A DNA stretch of 64,000 bases from assembly GCA_019358835.1 (NCBI GenBank), contig JAHHIH010000003.1, positions 124,001 through 188,000 of the forward strand, in the 5' to 3' direction. The position numbers and the translations under genes are program-made. The notes under the pieces were generated by a model. It did not search any database. It saw only the letters and a list, made by a program, of their open reading frames with translations, and had not been told where the DNA came from. Source of the DNA: Tildeniella torsiva UHER 1998/13D (GTDB lineage: Bacteria > Cyanobacteriota > Cyanobacteriia > Phormidesmidales > Phormidesmidaceae). Below are positions 2,663-60,580 of the stretch, piece by piece. Positions within the stretch are counted from its first letter, which is position 1. Each line of letters opens with the position of its first letter.

Positions 2663-2726
2663 GGGGAAGAGTGGGGAGTAAGGGGGTGGGGGAGATGGGG
2701 GAGATTGGGAAGATGGGGGAGAATTT
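2663..2726. repeat. GGGGGAGAT-type tandem repeats
   Basis: Units of GGGGGAGAT/GGGAAGATG fill the space between two convergent genes and end at the stop codon of the nuclease gene. No U-tract terminator is visible here. Confidence 0.6.
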
Positions 2727-3801
2727 AGCGGAGGCTTTCGCAGGCAACGCCATCGCTGTCGCCATCCAGACGATGAGGATCGCCGGGGGAGGCATTGAGC
2801 ACCGCCTGAGCTTGTTCCCAGGTGGCGAAGTCGCCGCAGTCGCAGTCGCTAGAGACACAAGCAGGCAGGGCTGAAGTCGCTGCCGCAGGCGGGGTGTCAG
2901 GAGCTGGAACAACAGCCGGGGGAGGAGCGGTGGGGGCTGGGGATGCCCCGCCCCGGCGAAAATCCCAGGGCATGGTGGGGTTGGGCTGGCTCCAGAAATT
3001 GCGGCGGGCGTTGCGGGCAGCAGATTCCGCCTGGCGGTAGTCTTCAGCAGTGGGGGCACAGCCAGAAATGTACTGCTCGTAAACAACGGCATAGCCCTCG
3101 CGCACCAGTTGCAGCCCTACGGATTGGCCACCGCTGTAGATTTCGGCCACGGTTCTGCCGTAGCGATCGCGCTCAATCGCCCGCACTTCCACCGGCTGCC
3201 CAGTTGACACTATCTGCCGCAGCCGCAGCGTGGCCTCTGGCCCAAAAGCTTGACTGCTCTCCGGCGCATCCACACAGGCCAGGCGAATGGTAACCGGGCC
3301 ATCCTGGCCCTGCACCCGCAGGGTGTCGCCGTCGCCCACAGACACCACCTCGGCGGTGGGCAGAGTTTTGGCAGCGGCGGCCTGGGTAGCGTAGGCCAGG
3401 TTCGCCTCGTATTCCTGGCGTTTTTGCTGGGCGGTGGCAAAGAGGGCGCTGGTATTGGGGATGGCGGTGAGGGATGCGATCGCCCCCTCCCACTGATCCT
3501 TGACCTGCTGCCAATCGATAGCAGACTGGGCGGTTTGGGTCGCCACCGCCGCCGCCATGCCCTGGTCTAGAGCCTGATTGTAGTGCTGTTGCCCCTGAGC
3601 TGTTTGATCAGAACTCTCAATCATCGAAGGGCTTAGCTTGCTGCCTGGATCCTCAGCAGCGACTTTTGCCTGCCTCAAGTTAGCCCCAATAGCCCCCACT
3701 TCAGGTAAGGCCGAGCATCCCGACAGCAGAATTAGTAGACCCAGGGCATAGGCAGGCTGGCAAAGGGCTGCTGGATATCGACTGTCACGGGGCTGGGGCA
3801 T
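2725..3801 (-). CDS. Thermonuclease (SNase-like) lipoprotein with C-terminal excalibur domain
   Basis: Starting at ATG 3801 the protein has 358 residues. The N-terminus carries a lipoprotein signal with lipobox LSGC (Cys29). A helical spacer is followed by a staphylococcal-nuclease domain at about 150-262, with [12 protein letters not shown], the catalytic [10 protein letters not shown] (Arg, Glu) and [10 protein letters not shown] (Arg). The last 40 residues form an excalibur domain with the Ca-binding-like [10 protein letters not shown]. It is expected to be membrane-anchored outside the cytoplasm and to cut DNA or RNA in a Ca2+-dependent way. An upstream TTG (3858) would add 19 residues ahead of the signal and is less likely. 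Confidence 0.85.
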
Positions 3802-3910
3802 AGTTGGGGGCTGGTTATGCGATCGCCGTTTCACAAAAAATGTCACCTTGTATACCAAGGATACTTACCCCAGCGATGCAGTTCAGGACAAAAACCTCCC
3901 AGGCCCAGAT

Positions 3911-5744: not shown

Positions 5745-5884
5745 AGGGGTGGATGGATAAGGGTGTGGATGGATAAGGGGGTGGATGGGTGAGGGGTGGG
5801 TGGGTGAGGGGTGGGTGGGTAAGGGGTGGATGGGTGGAAGGTAAACGTTAGTTCCCTACCCCCTACTCCCTACTCCCTACCCCC
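5745..5884. repeat. GGTGGATGG-type tandem repeats between divergent cupA and Nudix genes
   Basis: About 100 bp of GGTGGATGG/GGGTGAGGG units are followed by CCCTACTCCCTAC units from about 5855. The block occupies most of the 181-bp divergent spacer, so any cupA promoter must lie in or beside repeat DNA. Confidence 0.7.
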
Positions 5885-5925
5885 TCTTGCTGTAGGCTAA
5901 ATTCGTTCAATCGGAGATTTCAGCA

Positions 5926-10437: not shown

Positions 10438-12777
10438 GTGGCCGATAATCATTGGTTAACCCGAGCCGAACGCGCTCTGGTTGTAGGATCTGGCGTCGGT
10501 GCCGTGGCATCTGTTGCCGCCCAAAATATTGCGCTGACCTCCGCGCCGCTGACGGTGCTAGTTGCGATCGGGCTGCTCAACCGCAACCGCGTTGAGCAGC
10601 AGCTCGAAGAAGCTCAGGAAAAGCTCGCCCGCCAGCATCGCCAAACCGGACACCGCCTCACCAACCTGGGTAAGCAGGTCAGTGCCATGCCGTCGCCCGA
10701 GGCGCTGACTAACTTTCAGCGGGCGGTGATGGAGCGCAACAACCACTCCTTCATTCGCTTTTCTAAGGAAATGAAGGGGCTCAAGGCCCACGTCGATCAG
10801 CGACTTGAGACGCTGCCCGCCCCCGATCTGACGGGCATTAACCAGCAGATTGCCCAGCTGCAAGAGCAGTCGGCGGCGGCCCAGGTGAACTTTGAAAACC
10901 TCAATACCTATATGCAGCGGCTGGTCACCACCCCTCGGGTAGAGGCCGCCGAGAACAAACTCTCCCAGGTCAAAACCGACCTCATGCAGACCCGCGTGAG
11001 TCTAGAGAACCTGCGCTCAGACACCCGCTGCCTGGTCACCAACCTGCAAGATGCCCTGGGGAAACTCGATCGCCGCTGGAATGAGTTTCCCCAGAGCAAC
11101 ACCCCCGGCCAGAACCGGGCCGAAATGGGCGATATGATCAAGGCCATGGCCACCCTGGTGCCGCAGTCAGAATTCAGCCGATTAGTCGATCACGTCAAAG
11201 ATCTCACCCGCCAGCAGACTCGCCTAGAGCAGGCCCTCACCAAGATTCCGGTGGGCACGGTGAACGGGTTGCCGGCGGCACCGCCCAGCACCGCTCAGCT
11301 AGAGCAGTTGACGGCAGAGTTAAGGCAGTTGCAGCAGCAGGTGAGCCGCCAGGAGACCGCTGGCCACACCCAGGAACAGGTGCAGCAGGTGGTCTCGCAG
11401 TACCTGGGGCAGGTTAAGGCCCAAGTGGCACAGCTAGAGGGGGTGACGCGATCGCTCTCCGAGCGCCAGCACCAGCTCACCAGTCAGCTAGTCACCGCCC
11501 CCGCCGACACCGCCAACCGCAAAGCCCTAATGCAGCTGGCGCGGCGGGTGCAGCAGACCGAAACCGAGCTCAAAACCTCCCGCGACCATCCACCGGCTCA
11601 GCTCGCTGTCGCCCCCCATGCCGAGTGGATTATTGACCTGCCCGTGGCCAATGCCCCTGAGCATGCCACTGAGCCCCAGGCCATGGCCAGCCGCCAGGCC
11701 CTAGAGACCGCCCTGAGGATGGCGACGCGGCGGGTGCTGCTGGTGTGGCCCTGGGCCAGCTACGTCACCATTGATGACAATTTGCTAGAGCAGTTTCGTC
11801 AGCTGCTAGAGCGAGGCGGCCAGCTCGAAATTGGCTGGTGCCACCGGGGCGATCAGCACGATGGCCGTCTGGCCTGGCGCATTAGCCAGCGCTGGGGCAC
11901 CGAGTCGAGCCAGCTACAGTTGCTCAAAGCCTCCCTCAACCAGCTTTTGCCCCTGCGGGAAAACTACCCCGATCGCTTCAAGTTCAGAATTATGGGCACC
12001 GCCGAGAGCTATCTGGTCTGCGACAGCGGCAATAGCGCGTCCCCCAAACAGACCTACGCCATTGTCAGCCTCAAGGCGCTGCCCACCCAGAGCGCCGCCA
12101 TCCCAGACCTAGACGCCAAGCTGCGCACCGCCGAACCCGCTGTTGTCCAGGCTCTCATGCAGCGCTTCCGCGATCCGGCCATTCCCCCTGGGGATACGGT
12201 GGCGTTCTTTAACCGGGGCACCACCCGCCACGACCTGCGCGACCAGCCCGGCGCGATCAGCGACTACAGCCAGGTGATTGCCCTCCAGCCCGACCACGCC
12301 ATTGCCCTCAACAACCGAGGGGTGGCCCAGCTTGAGCTCAACCAGGTCGAGGCCGCCGAGGCCGATCTTACCGAGGCGATTCTGCAACACGGCAAGCTGT
12401 TTGCCCCCTACTGCAACCGGGGCTGGCTACGCCTAGAGCAGCGTCGCTACGCCGCCGCGATCGCCGACTTTACCCAGGCGATCGCCCTCAAGCCGCACCT
12501 GCCCATGGCCTACGTGTACCGGGGCAGCGCCCTGCAAAAGCTGGGCGATCTCAAAGGCGCGGTGCGCGACTACAGCGACGCCATTGCCTGCGGCGACCCC
12601 ATTGCGCTGCCCTACTGCTACCGCAGCGCCGCCTACCAGAGCCAGGGCGATCAGGCCAGGGCGATCGCCGATCTAGAGCGAGCCAGCGCCTACCTCGAAG
12701 CCCAGGGCGATCGGCAGGGGCTCACTTCTGTGCAGCGGACCTTGAGCAGGTTGCAGGGGATGGGGGTGAGTGGGTGA
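10438..12777 (+). CDS. Large coiled-coil protein with PLD-like central region and C-terminal TPR repeats
   Basis: This 779-residue protein starts at GTG. A short hydrophobic segment (about 14-47) precedes a long Gln/Glu/Leu-rich coiled coil (about 50-390). A folded region at about 395-560 contains RVLLVWPWASY, LLERGGQLEIGWCHRGD and FRIMGTAESYLVCD, resembling the strand pattern of a degenerate phospholipase D-like domain without its HxK residues. From about 590 there are at least four TPR units (FNRGTTRHDLRDQPGAISDY, LNNRGVAQLEL, YCNRGWLRLEQRRY, YRGSALQKLGDL). The layout suggests a membrane-associated scaffold; no function is established. Confidence 0.85.
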   Translation: MADNHWLTRAERALVVGSGVGAVASVAAQNIALTSAPLTVLVAIGLLNRNRVEQQLEEAQEKLARQHRQTGHRLTNLGKQVSAMPSPEALTNFQRAVMERNNHSFIRFSKEMKGLKAHVDQRLETLPAPDLTGINQQIAQLQEQSAAAQVNFENLNTYMQRLVTTPRVEAAENKLSQVKTDLMQTRVSLENLRSDTRCLVTNLQDALGKLDRRWNEFPQSNTPGQNRAEMGDMIKAMATLVPQSEFSRLVDHVKDLTRQQTRLEQALTKIPVGTVNGLPAAPPSTAQLEQLTAELRQLQQQVSRQETAGHTQEQVQQVVSQYLGQVKAQVAQLEGVTRSLSERQHQLTSQLVTAPADTANRKALMQLARRVQQTETELKTSRDHPPAQLAVAPHAEWIIDLPVANAPEHATEPQAMASRQALETALRMATRRVLLVWPWASYVTIDDNLLEQFRQLLERGGQLEIGWCHRGDQHDGRLAWRISQRWGTESSQLQLLKASLNQLLPLRENYPDRFKFRIMGTAESYLVCDSGNSASPKQTYAIVSLKALPTQSAAIPDLDAKLRTAEPAVVQALMQRFRDPAIPPGDTVAFFNRGTTRHDLRDQPGAISDYSQVIALQPDHAIALNNRGVAQLELNQVEAAEADLTEAILQHGKLFAPYCNRGWLRLEQRRYAAAIADFTQAIALKPHLPMAYVYRGSALQKLGDLKGAVRDYSDAIACGDPIALPYCYRSAAYQSQGDQARAIADLERASAYLEAQGDRQGLTSVQRTLSRLQGMGVSG

Positions 12778-12866
12778 GTGGGTGGGGAGTGGGGAGTGGG
12801 GAGTCTAGTTTTTATCTCCCTCCTACCTCACCCACCTCACCTACCTCACCTACCTCACCTACCTCA
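12771..12866. repeat. GGTGGGGAGT and 9-bp ACCTCACCT tandem repeats, partly coding
   Basis: GTGGGGAGT units (12779-12804) are followed by five copies of a 9-bp CTACCTCAC unit (about 12825-12869). The second array is in frame with the minus-strand membrane-protein gene and encodes its Gly-Glu-Val tail. Confidence 0.75.
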
Positions 12867-13504
12867 CCCAAACCGGGCCGCAGCGCTAGATACAGACAGG
12901 CTCCCACCAGCGGCAGGGCCAGCACCGCCGCGATCACCCAGGGCTGACTCAGGCCTCGGCGGGCCATATCGTCGCGCAGCAGCACTGGGAACAGCAGCCA
13001 CAGAGCGCAGAAATCCAGCGACATAACGTGAATAAAGCGGCTAGTCTGCCACTGCTGCCAGAAATCGGGCCAGTCTCCTTTAAGTAATGCAAATGCAGCC
13101 AAGGCGATCGCCCCCGCCGCCAGGGCCGCCCCCAGCCAGCGAGCCTCTAGCAGCCGCAGCAGGGCACTTTTGGGGCCGCTAAAATTGGGGCCAAAACTGG
13201 GATTAGACTGTCGCAGGGCCAGGTAGGGCAGCAGCGCAAAGGCCCCCACCGCAAACGACACCACCACAAAAGGCCAAGCCCGCTGCTTTTGCCCGTGGCC
13301 ATCGATTAGGGCCACCGCAGCATAGACCATTGGCCAGATTCCCATAGCGTTGAACAGCGCCACAATGGTGGGGTTGATATCGTCCCACTGTCCCGTGGAG
13401 AGGCGCAGAATCAGATCAGCCGTGTCGGGGCGATCGGGGGGAGCAAGTATAAATGCATACAGAATAAACCCAAGCCAAAGTCCCAAAAAAATCAATCGAT
13501 TCAT
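12812..13504 (-). CDS. Conserved cyanobacterial-type membrane protein of unknown function with repeat-encoded tail
   Basis: The 230-residue protein has several hydrophobic segments (about 3-20, 50-66, 76-94, 122-140, 163-176, 188-208) and FSGPKSALLRLLEARWLG between them. It belongs to no family I can name with confidence. Its C-terminus is five Gly-Glu-Val triplets plus GGR, encoded by the 9-bp intergenic-type repeat, so the original stop codon was probably lost to repeat growth. ATG 13504. It is convergent with the TPR gene; the two stops are about 35 bp apart. Confidence 0.75.
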   Translation of the reverse strand: MNRLIFLGLWLGFILYAFILAPPDRPDTADLILRLSTGQWDDINPTIVALFNAMGIWPMVYAAVALIDGHGQKQRAWPFVVVSFAVGAFALLPYLALRQSNPSFGPNFSGPKSALLRLLEARWLGAALAAGAIALAAFALLKGDWPDFWQQWQTSRFIHVMSLDFCALWLLFPVLLRDDMARRGLSQPWVIAAVLALPLVGACLYLALRPGLGEVGEVGEVGEVGEVGGR

Positions 13505-24151: not shown

Positions 24152-24243
24152 AGGTGAAGTGGGTGTGTGGGTGTGTGGGTGTGTGGGTGTGTGGGTGTGT
24201 GCAATTCACCTACCCCACCTACTTCACCTACCCACCTACCCCT
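24152..24243. repeat. GTGGGTGT 8-bp tandem array plus CCCACCTA units
   Basis: Five exact copies of GTGGGTGT occupy 24159-24198. They are followed by complementary CACCTACC units running into the last codons of the response-regulator gene, so the spacer between that gene and gun4 can fold back on itself. Confidence 0.8.
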
Positions 24244-41710: not shown

Positions 41711-42670
41711 TCATTTGAGCGCTTCGATCACCGCATCGTGGATCGCGCCGTTGCTGGCGACGACGCCGGGGTTATTAGGGAAGCGGGCCGCGCTGGCAAA
41801 GTCGAGGGGCTGGCCGCGCATATCGGTGACGCGGCCCCCGGCTTCTTCGACCACCAGCACTCCGGCAGCGTGATCCCAAATTTTTTCGCGATAGTCGGGG
41901 GTTTTGGGAGAGGGCAGGCGCAGGTAGAGGGCAGCTTGCCCTGCGGCCACAGCGGCGTACTTAGCCTGGCTATCCATGCGAATAGAAGGGGCGGTAATGC
42001 CAACAGCCTGGGCGACATGGGCCTGCTGGCTGAGGTCGCCGTGGCCCGACTCGACACTTTCGACCAGGCGTAGGTGGTCAACATCGTCGGCAGCGGTAAC
42101 TTTCAGCGGTTGGAGGGTGCCGCCCGCCAGGGACATCATCACGGTGCCCTCACCGCGCACGGCGACAAAGATTAAGCCCATTTCGCCACCGTCAAAGCTG
42201 AGGAAGGGGCAGCCGAGCACTCCTACTTTGATGTCGCCATCAACGACCAGGGCCAGGGCGATCGCGTACTGGTCACCGCGCAAAAAACCCTTGGTGCCGT
42301 CGATGGGGTCGAGGGTCCAGTAGCGGGGCGCGACATCACCATTACCGTGGTCAATCCAGTTCAGCACATCGCTATCGGTGGCGCTGGGAATGGCTTGCTG
42401 TACCTGGGCAGTGACGGCGGTGAGAACAGCGGTGGTTTCGGGCTGGCGCAGGTCGGTGGTGTCTTCTTCGCCCACCACCGAGTCACTGGGAAAGGCCTCG
42501 GCCAGGGCTTTACAAATCAACGCTTGGGCACCGTAGTCGGCGATGGTGACGGGGCTTTTGTCGTTTTTTTCGATGGCGGCGGGGACGAGGCCCTGGCGCA
42601 CGGCTTCGCAGAGCTGGGCGGCTTGGATGACGGCGGCAATCGCGACTTGTTTTTCCTTGTCGTAGGGCAT
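41711..42670 (-). CDS. cysQ: 3'(2'),5'-bisphosphate nucleotidase, inositol monophosphatase family
   Basis: The 319-residue protein shows VVGEEDT (metal Glu), YWTLDPIDGTKGFLRGDQYAIAL (the DPxDGTxxF metal site) and the C-terminal KIWDHAAGVLVVEEAGGRVTD. It matches HAL2/CysQ-type enzymes that turn 3'-phosphoadenosine 5'-phosphate into AMP, clearing the by-product of sulfate assimilation. Other inositol-phosphatase activities are possible. ATG 42670. Confidence 0.9.
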   Translation of the reverse strand: MPYDKEKQVAIAAVIQAAQLCEAVRQGLVPAAIEKNDKSPVTIADYGAQALICKALAEAFPSDSVVGEEDTTDLRQPETTAVLTAVTAQVQQAIPSATDSDVLNWIDHGNGDVAPRYWTLDPIDGTKGFLRGDQYAIALALVVDGDIKVGVLGCPFLSFDGGEMGLIFVAVRGEGTVMMSLAGGTLQPLKVTAADDVDHLRLVESVESGHGDLSQQAHVAQAVGITAPSIRMDSQAKYAAVAAGQAALYLRLPSPKTPDYREKIWDHAAGVLVVEEAGGRVTDMRGQPLDFASAARFPNNPGVVASNGAIHDAVIEALK

Positions 42671-42727
42671 GGGGAAGTAGGGAGTGAGGGGGGTTAGGGG
42701 AGATGGGGGAGTGGGGGAGATGGGGGA
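42669..42727. repeat. GGGGGAGATGGG-type tandem repeats
   Basis: GGGGAGATGGGGGAGTGGGGG units fill the spacer between the PfkB gene and the nucleotidase gene on the minus strand and abut the nucleotidase start. Confidence 0.6.
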
Positions 42728-42740
42728 TTACAAGAGAGCA

Positions 42741-57482: not shown

Positions 57483-58280
57483 ATGATTGAAATCCAAAAA
57501 CTCACCAAACTCTTCGGCACCAAAACCGCCGTCGATAGCTTCTGCCTCACTGTCGAGCCGGGGGAAGTCTTTGGCTTGCTGGGGCCAAACGGGGCGGGCA
57601 AAAGCACAGTGATTAAAATGCTCACCACCCTGCTGCCCGCTAGCAGTGGACGGGCTGCGATCGCCGGATACGACATTGGCCGCCAGCCCTCTGGGGTGCA
57701 GCGCAGCATTGGCTACGTTCCCCAGGCCCTCTCAGTAGACGGCAACCTGACTGGCTACGAAAACCTATTGATTTTGGCCAAACTCTACGGCGTGCCCCGG
57801 CGGCAGCGGCTCGATCGCATCCATGCCGCCCTCCACTATGTCGGACTCGACACGGTGGCGAACCGTCTGGTCAACACCTACTCCGGCGGCATGATTCGGC
57901 GGCTAGAGATGGCCCAGGCCACCCTGCACCGCCCCCCGGTTTTATTTCTGGATGAACCCACGGTGGGGCTCGACCCGGTGGCCCGCAAAACCATGTGGGA
58001 TCTGATCTTGCAGCTGCGGCGCGACTACCAAACCACAGTGTTTCTCACCACCCACTTTATGGAAGAGGCGGATGTGCTGTGCGATCGCATCGCCATGCTC
58101 TATAACGGCCAGCAGGTGGCCATGGGCACCCCCGCCGCGCTCAAGGCCACCGTGCCCCACCCCGAAGCCACCATGGATGACGTCTTCATCCACTACACCC
58201 GCAACCCCCTGACCACCGACAACGAAGGAAGCTATCGTGACACGTCAACTACACGACGCACCGCTCAGCGGTTGGGCTAA
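57483..58280 (+). CDS. ABC transporter ATP-binding protein, DrrA type
   Basis: The protein has 265 residues from ATG 57483 (MIEIQKLTKLFG). It has Walker A GPNGAGKST, Q-loop YVPQALSVDGNLTGYENL, signature YSGGMIRRLEMAQA, Walker B PVLFLDEPTVGLDP and switch His TTHFMEEADVL. It energises the ABC-2 permease encoded next. The last 14 codons overlap the permease start, so the two are coupled. The DrrA-like form suggests export of a drug or lipid. Confidence 0.93.
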   Translation: MIEIQKLTKLFGTKTAVDSFCLTVEPGEVFGLLGPNGAGKSTVIKMLTTLLPASSGRAAIAGYDIGRQPSGVQRSIGYVPQALSVDGNLTGYENLLILAKLYGVPRRQRLDRIHAALHYVGLDTVANRLVNTYSGGMIRRLEMAQATLHRPPVLFLDEPTVGLDPVARKTMWDLILQLRRDYQTTVFLTTHFMEEADVLCDRIAMLYNGQQVAMGTPAALKATVPHPEATMDDVFIHYTRNPLTTDNEGSYRDTSTTRRTAQRLG

Positions 58281-59073
58281 CCGAAGCCGCATTACCGCTC
58301 CAGTAGAGGAATTTATTGCCAAAGCCCTGGTGGCCGCCGAGCTAGAAATTCGCAAGCTGCGCCACGACCCCATTCAACTATTTACCCGCGCCGTGCAGCC
58401 GGTGCTTTGGCTGACCATTTTTGGCCAGGTGTTTACCCAGGTGCGCGGCATCCCCACCGGCAACCTCAGCTACATTGACTTTATGACGCCGGGCATTTTG
58501 GCCCAAAGCGTTCTATTTATGTCAATCTTCACCGGACTGCTGGTGATCTGGGAAAAAGATCTGGGGATTTTGCACAAGCTGATGGTCAGCCCTGCGCCAA
58601 AGTCAGCGCTGGTGCTGGGAAAGGCGATCGGAGCCGGGGTGCGATGCCTGTCGCAATTGCTGATCATTTATATTGTGGCAGCTCTCATGGGCGTGGCGAT
58701 TAACTGGAATCCTCTCGCAATTCTCGGCGTGGCCCTAGTGGTGATGCTGGGGGCGGCGCTGTTTTCCACCTTTTCCCTCATCGTCGCCTGCTGGGCACAG
58801 ACCCACGAGCGGGTAATGGGCGTAGGTCAGCTAATGATGATGCCGTTATTCTTTGCCAGCAACGCGATCTACCCAATCTCGATCATGCCCGCTTGGCTCC
58901 AGGTAGTGTCGCGGCTCAACCCGCTGACTTACATGGTCGATGCCCTGCGCAACCTCATGCTGGTAGAACCGGCGGGCAGCTACAGCCTGGGGCTGAGCAT
59001 CTCGATCTTGGTGGGCGTGGCGGCTGTGCTGATCGCCTTCTGCGGTCGCCTGTATCCTCGTCTGGTGCAATAG
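58237..59073 (+). CDS. ABC-2 type transporter permease
   Basis: The 278-residue protein starts at GTG 58237, 44 bp inside the ATPase gene. It has six membrane segments and the ABC-2 pattern: QPVLWLTIFGQVF, the YIDFMTPGILAQSVLFMSIFTG stretch, EKDLGILHKLMVSPAPKSALVLGKA and the C-terminal FFASNAIYPISIMPAWLQVVSRLNPLTY. With the ATPase it makes a DrrAB-like exporter under MarR control. Confidence 0.93.
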   Translation: MTRQLHDAPLSGWANRSRITAPVEEFIAKALVAAELEIRKLRHDPIQLFTRAVQPVLWLTIFGQVFTQVRGIPTGNLSYIDFMTPGILAQSVLFMSIFTGLLVIWEKDLGILHKLMVSPAPKSALVLGKAIGAGVRCLSQLLIIYIVAALMGVAINWNPLAILGVALVVMLGAALFSTFSLIVACWAQTHERVMGVGQLMMMPLFFASNAIYPISIMPAWLQVVSRLNPLTYMVDALRNLMLVEPAGSYSLGLSISILVGVAAVLIAFCGRLYPRLVQ

Positions 59074-59255
59074 TCCTCATTATTCCATCTAGAGATCAAT
59101 GGGTTTAAAGATGGATGGGTAGCGTGCGATCGCTAAACTACCGATGGAAGATCTGAAACCACTAGCGCAATTGGCAAGGCGGTAAGCACGCTAAAAAGTG
59201 GCCTCAGTGCAGAGTCAGGGAACAATACCTCTGTATTTACTTCTCCCTTCTGCCA

Positions 59256-59740
59256 ATGGTTGCTCAACTTTTACAGGCCCTAAGTCTGTCTCCTTTATGT
59301 CTTTTGCTGGTGGGAGGTGCGATCGCCAACGCTCAAAACCTGCCTCCCTATGCGGGTACCTACTGCACCGATTTCGCCACCTATCCAGAAGCTCAGTGGC
59401 ACTATATGCGGGTACCTACTGCACCGATTTCGCCACCTATCCAGAAGCTCAGTGGCACTATTCTTTCGGGACTGCACCCGCTTCTGTAGACGAAAATAGA
59501 GATGGTCGAGCCTGTGAGTATCTAACCAGCGCTATTCGGCAAGATGGCAATCGCATATTTTCAAACCAGGCCACTCGCGGTTCAGAGGTTTTTAGATTAG
59601 AGGTTTGGCGAGTTAACGCTAGAGATGTGTATTTACGCATCAAGTCAAATCGCGGGGTAGACTTTACTACCCGCAGCTTTCCCTCTGACTCGGCAGCCAG
59701 GGCACATATGAGAACCTACTACCAAAATTTGCTGAACTAA
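59256..59740 (+). pseudogene. Exported excalibur-domain protein gene broken by a 56-bp tandem duplication
   Basis: An intact signal peptide (MVAQLLQALSLSPLCLLLVG..ANA) leads into YAGTYCTDFATYPEAQWHY. The DNA for this stretch (59349-59404) is exactly repeated at 59405-59460. Since 56 is not a multiple of three, the frame shifts and stops at 59489. After removal of one copy the frame runs on through SVDENRDGRACEYL, an excalibur-like Ca-binding motif, and ends at 59740 with about 140 residues. The same domain ends the nuclease at 2725. Function unknown; likely secreted. Confidence 0.8.
59405..59460. repeat. Second copy of a 56-bp perfect tandem duplication
   Basis: It begins TATGCGGGTACC and ends GTGGCACTA, identical to the preceding 59349-59404. 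Its perfection implies a very recent event. Confidence 0.9.
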
Positions 59741-59875
59741 GAGCTAGCCAAGCGGCCTGTACAGTTGCTGAGATTGGGCAAAGGGCCGTGCTCAATCTCA
59801 GGAAATTCCCTCCAAGAAATCCTCAAATGCTCCAGACTTACTACTGCCATACCGCCTCGGTTTGCTAAAGGTACT

Positions 59876-60580
59876 TCATGACTCGGCCAGGTCAGCGCTA
59901 AGGGCAAGGGGCTCGATACAGTCTGGGGAATCGTTTTGGGGCTTGTTGACCAAAGTCGAAACCGGGTAGCGATCCATTGCCCCATCGTCGTAGGGGCGCA
60001 GCATCTCTTGAAGCACCTGGGGCTGGTAGTAATCGGGGTCGAGCCAGGCACCATAGTCTTCCGGAGCCAAAATTACCGGCATACGGGTGTGGATCGGCTC
60101 CATCAGCTGGTTGGGGGTAGTGGTGAGAATGGTGCAGGTTTGCAGTTCGCCGCCGCCAGTCGGGTCGCTCCAATGTTCCCACAGCCCAGCAAAGGCAAAG
60201 GGCGCATGGTCCTTGAGAAAGATATAGTGGGGCTGTTTGGTCTTATGGCCAGAAATGGCCTCCCATTCGTAAAACCCATCGGCCAAGATCAGGCAGCGAC
60301 GGCGCTTAAAGGCGGCGCGAAAGGACGGCTTTTCGACCACGGTTTCGGCGCGGGCATTGATCATCCGGCTGCCGATGGTAGGGTCTTTGGCCCAGCTAGG
60401 AATTAGCCCCCAGAGGCGGAAGTCGAAGTAGGGCTTTGGATCTTCAACAGTGGCCACCACCGTGGCCACCAGCTGGCTGGGGGCGATATTAAAGCGCGGC
60501 ATAACCGGGGGAGTGGACTGAAGCAGAAAGGCATCAGTCAGGTCATCGCCGGTTTTGTTGAGGCTGAACCGTCCACACAT
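59876..60580 (-). CDS. SOS-response-associated peptidase/abasic-site shield (SRAP, YedK/HMCES-like)
   Basis: The 234-residue protein begins MCGRF with the catalytic Cys2. It has FNIAPSQLV, WGLIPSWAKDP, MINARAETV (active-site Asn and Glu), the CLILADGFYEWEAI stretch and HTRMPVIL (active-site His). SRAP proteins crosslink to abasic sites in single-stranded DNA through Cys2 to protect them from cleavage. Full length, ATG 60580. Confidence 0.95.
   Translation of the reverse strand: MCGRFSLNKTGDDLTDAFLLQSTPPVMPRFNIAPSQLVATVVATVEDPKPYFDFRLWGLIPSWAKDPTIGSRMINARAETVVEKPSFRAAFKRRRCLILADGFYEWEAISGHKTKQPHYIFLKDHAPFAFAGLWEHWSDPTGGGELQTCTILTTTPNQLMEPIHTRMPVILAPEDYGAWLDPDYYQPQVLQEMLRPYDDGAMDRYPVSTLVNKPQNDSPDCIEPLALSADLAES

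Follow-up and report, generated by a model that had tools for sequence, protein, structure and literature searches.

What does it mean that a small gene, otherwise clean and conserved, is interrupted by a perfect direct copy of part of itself? The locus lies in a 64,000-nucleotide stretch of the cyanobacterium Tildeniella torsiva UHER 1998/13D that was analysed as a whole (hereafter the window), and its repeat could in principle be a reversible switch, an error of assembly, the seed of a new protein or simply a mutation.

The repeat consists of two head-to-tail copies that are identical at 56/56 bases and is the best-scoring of the 27 TRF rows in the window (59349-59461; period 56, 2.0 copies, 100% matches). 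The period match continues for one base past the right edge and for none past the left, giving the unit boundary a one-base ambiguity. On the grounds of length, the identity of all 56 positions in adjacent copies makes a chance origin extremely unlikely. Translation from ATG 59256 stays in frame across copy 1, slips out of it on entering copy 2 and terminates at 59489 after 77 amino acids; the original frame picks up again in copy 2 and remains open for 111 codons to a stop ending at 59740. Of the 485 nt from 59256 to 59740, removal of one copy leaves 429 nt, or 143 codons including the stop, which is the length of the intact relative in L007 (142 amino acids). The sequence-only reading, which had claimed an exact 56-bp tandem duplication and a frame shift that is mended by removing one copy, is therefore borne out on both points (Table 1).

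Table 1. Features of the disrupted locus, in window coordinates
Feature	Positions	Strand	Basis
ABC-2 type transporter permease, left neighbour	58237..59073	+	Frame list, Pfam scan
Segment between permease and SRAP gene, missing at this site in eight relatives	59095..59905	.	Flank comparison; borders approximate, by eye
Alternative open frame across both copies (GTG 59198, 180 aa; ATG 59297, 147 aa by position)	59198..59740	+	Frame list
Truncated frame, 77 aa: signal-peptide-like N terminus, start of excalibur-like domain, shifted residues, early stop	59256..59489	+	Frame list; N terminus against four homologues
Copy 1 of the 56-bp direct repeat	59349..59404	+	TRF, copy comparison
Copy 2 of the 56-bp direct repeat, same as copy 1; period match to 59461	59405..59460	+	TRF, copy comparison
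Original frame resumed, 111 codons and stop: excalibur-like domain and C-terminal part found almost only in the genus	59405..59740	+	Frame, homologue search, alignment
SRAP-family gene, right neighbour	59876..60580	-	Frame list, Pfam scan

A promoter scan returned 0 promoter-like sites against 0.8 expected in shuffles and does not separate the candidate starts, a terminator scan returned three terminator-like sites against 0.8 expected (sd 1.1), and no structured RNA in Rfam matched 58900-60200 at gathering thresholds. On both strands of the 56-bp unit, folding is no stronger than in shuffled sequence (z -0.45 and -0.03), and hairpin-driven slippage at the repeat was set aside on this basis.

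The product would be a small, probably secreted protein. From ATG 59256 the N terminus resembles, by eye, a Sec signal peptide, and pairwise comparison with four homologues shows 20 or 21 of its first 35 residues shared in every case. The excalibur motif is an acidic D-x-D-x-D-G-x-x-C-E loop with a cysteine pair; in an alignment judged by eye, residues C6, D29, G34 and C37 are invariant in 9/9 rows, and the loop carries N at the second D in the window copy and deviates at the third D or the E in some other rows. Against Pfam Excalibur (PF05901; cut-off 22 bits), the 111-codon part scores 17.8 bits and the paralogue on contig C37 of the same genome 17.4 bits, both below the cut-off, with the full-length homologue on contig C25 above it (31.5 bits). 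Because the window copy and its C37 paralogue lie under the cut-off and Pfam has no match to the C-terminal part, we use the label 'excalibur-like'. The protein shares with excalibur proteins a small size, probable secretion, two conserved cysteines, parts of an acidic loop and a C25 homologue that passes the cut-off, and differs from them in the low scores of the other two copies and in a C-terminal part that is almost confined to the genus. Of the secreted excalibur protein proposed earlier, the secretion signal is consistent with the look of the N terminus, and the family name holds only in this weakened form. Calcium binding is possible.

None of the three query sequences matched NCBIfam, a sequence search of solved structures and a search of PLSDB plasmids for the gene gave no match, PHROGs returned a single weak family of unknown function, and two IMG/VR contigs matched the excalibur-like stretch only (48% and 45% over about 35 residues). 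An AlphaFold model of the intact C37 paralogue had a mean pLDDT of 51.5, too low for a fold search.

The C37 paralogue (77426-77755) is 72-73% identical to the window copy, has an open frame of 147 amino acids without internal stops and adjoins a CAP-domain gene. The C25 homologue, on a 23.5-kb contig, is 57% identical and likewise open without internal stops, and lies near a gene that we take to be ParA-like. Both contigs provide an intact homologue in the same genome, as redundancy would require, and the broken gene is probably an extra, redundant copy as judged by this similarity. The window copy and its C37 paralogue have diverged at over a quarter of their residues and their synonymous sites are saturated, so that C37 may serve another function. 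The same saturation (pS 0.793) indicates that the window copy did not split from C37 recently.

Matches occur in 11 of 63 genomes of the order, ten of them in the genus of the window (its own genome and partial matches counted), and the sole match outside the genus is weak (E 4.0e-4). One named relative is the cyanobacterium Phormidium sp. FACHB-1136. The gene that follows the homologue begins similarly in five relatives (L004, L005, L007, L084 and L085), and the G015 homologue (L010) has different neighbours. The G021 homologue (L012, G021:C72, 1501-1623) lacks 47 codons in frame, the gap starting about 18 bp after the position at which the 56-bp unit ends, by eye against G002; it sits at a contig end, divergent from a neighbour that is presumably recA. 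The counterpart of the CAP-domain gene in G008 (L007, 1858-2253) encodes 131 amino acids compared with 210 on C37, and in G016 (L006) its frame appears broken.

Across the 25 further genus genomes whose flanks were compared, the permease and SRAP genes are adjacent in eight, six without a gene between them (match spacings of 54, 54, 55, 56, 76 and 121 bp) and two with a different one. The latter, L023 in G004 and L029 in G012 (spacings of 893 and 648 bp), carry at this site what we take to be an NADPH-dependent FMN reductase gene, suggesting that the spot may accept different genes. In the other 17 genomes, both genes are present but apart in six (on different contigs, or about 1 Mb apart in G009) and one or both flanks were not found in 11; adjacency is thus not universal. 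DNA similarity to the relatives fades over the last codons of the SRAP gene, where the segment joins. Judged by the eight relatives with a readable site, the gene appears lineage-specific at this locus.

The break seems to be young. The window copy and the C37 paralogue differ at 20, 20 and 62 sites in codon positions 1, 2 and 3, respectively (pN 0.163, with synonymous sites saturated as above), and their pN to the C25 homologue is equal (0.354 and 0.348), which indicates no relaxed decay. Codons downstream of the repeat are free of stops and of the further decay that was looked for there. By these substitution patterns, the gene is one that was under purifying selection until recently; with no decay downstream, this makes the break young, and a disrupted frame whose remaining codons record past purifying selection is what a recent pseudogene would display. 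Identity over 56 bases bounds the divergence of the copies at about 5% (95%), barring gene conversion, which could instead have kept them identical. The suggestion of a very recent event is hence upheld by identical copies, an undecayed downstream frame and no excess of amino-acid changes.

We therefore propose, at a probability of roughly 0.8, that a small excalibur-like gene for a probably secreted protein, present here as an extra and lineage-specific copy, was recently inactivated by a spontaneous 56-bp tandem duplication. The duplication would have arisen by replication slippage or by illegitimate joining of ends that share next to no homology; the protein from the window locus would now be lost, and its loss may be tolerated because the C37 paralogue is intact. 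Like any such duplication, two perfect copies could collapse to one at low frequency. As in ordinary bacterial pseudogenes made by a frame-shifting indel, a single lesion affects one genome, which also has an undamaged relative of the gene; unlike them, the lesion is a longer duplication, so that exact undoing is possible in principle. Slippage could plausibly remove one copy, given general considerations and the pneumococcal precedent discussed below; this would make the mutation revertible but not an evolved switch. Of modest consequence outside annotation, the locus would then be a clean example of a spare gene starting to decay, before any second lesion; should mixed alleles turn up in reads, it would also offer a simple cyanobacterial system for studying duplications that can revert. 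Among the matches listed, the available portions of the literature on excalibur in cyanobacteria, short tandem duplications and cyanobacterial frameshift or phase variation hold no such case.

The strongest competitor is an assembly artefact, in which overlapping sequence ends were joined unmerged to leave a second copy. The assembly is a 48-contig draft, such a join would leave just this kind of perfect duplication in a gene that is otherwise clean and conserved, and the period of 56 is close to a common k-mer size, 55. The period is even, however, whereas k-mers are usually of odd length, and assemblers are more prone to collapse short tandem repeats than to create them. In a scan of 625,851 bp of the genome (10.7%; periods 10-600), no perfect tandem repeat apart from the 56-bp one had a unit longer than 23 bp, which argues against a systematic single-length duplication in that sequence. 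We regard an artefact as less likely than a real mutation, with a probability on the order of one in eight. The same scan returned five rows at 90% identity or more with units of at least 20 bp, the 56-bp repeat and a 141-bp unit on C37 (97% identity) among them. By this measure, 400 kb of G008 held one row and 400 kb of G015 held 21, some overlapping (perfect repeats whose units measure 24 and 27 bp among them, and one with a unit of 384 bp at 99.5%), suggesting that rates of tandem duplication differ widely in the genus and that one event is unremarkable.

Spontaneous tandem duplications in pneumococcal capsule genes (the type 3 locus, cap8E and tts) were reportedly described by Waite et al. 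in 2001 and 2003, as phase variation by title. Papers citing that work call the capsule duplications reversible in the parts available (PMC4022640, PMC4243769), and they lend some substance to a phase-variable gene here, in which gain and loss of the second copy would switch a secreted protein off and on under selection. Slippage can act on two perfect copies lying side by side to remove one, and, in the part of the GeneTack study available, phase-variable products are commonly exposed proteins and a tandem repeat near a frameshift counts as a feature of phase variation (PMC3711429). Within that same part, a singleton is taken to be probably a sequencing error or an indel mutation (PMC3711429), and ours is a single case: no perfect tandem repeat with a unit of at least 15 bp was found around any of 11 further homologues (C37, C25 and those of nine genomes), scanned over up to 800 bp around the gene or 423 bp at the contig end in G021. 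A repeat conserved or varying in number among relatives, as phase variation would predict, is thus seen in 0/11. Edge homology of 1 bp and an ordinary fold leave no visible feature that would predispose the site to repeated gain. With only two copies and an extra paralogue as well, the on/off switching put forward in the sequence-only reading finds no support beyond the repeat itself, and a selected switch is very improbable. The capsule cases do resemble our locus in having a tandem duplication within an ORF, an inactivated gene and exact reversion possible in principle, but reversibility is stated for them, and our locus comes from a single genome, involves a gene that is probably redundant and shows no sign of reversion. 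Slightly more doubtful still is the specific picture of an excalibur-like protein switched by a reversible 56-bp duplication in its own domain, a capsule-like system but in a phototroph.

Least credible is that the two-copy allele makes a new functional, non-secreted protein from GTG 59198 or ATG 59297, keeping the excalibur-like and C-terminal parts: the frame is open through both copies, but its N terminus lacks a hydrophobic, signal-peptide-like stretch by eye and in the four homologues compared an ATG or GTG start codon stands where ATG 59256 does, followed by a similar N terminus in that frame, so the alternative frame probably has no real product.

Two further observations concern the rest of the window. 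Short, degenerate G-rich or C-rich tandem tracts occur at 1081-1207, 5745-5885, 12756-12868, 24159-24242 and 42669-42730. On the minus strand, a 377-amino-acid frame at 2725-3858 ends in a C-terminal Excalibur domain that exceeds the Pfam cut-off (27.7 bits), and its middle part is presumably thermonuclease-like.
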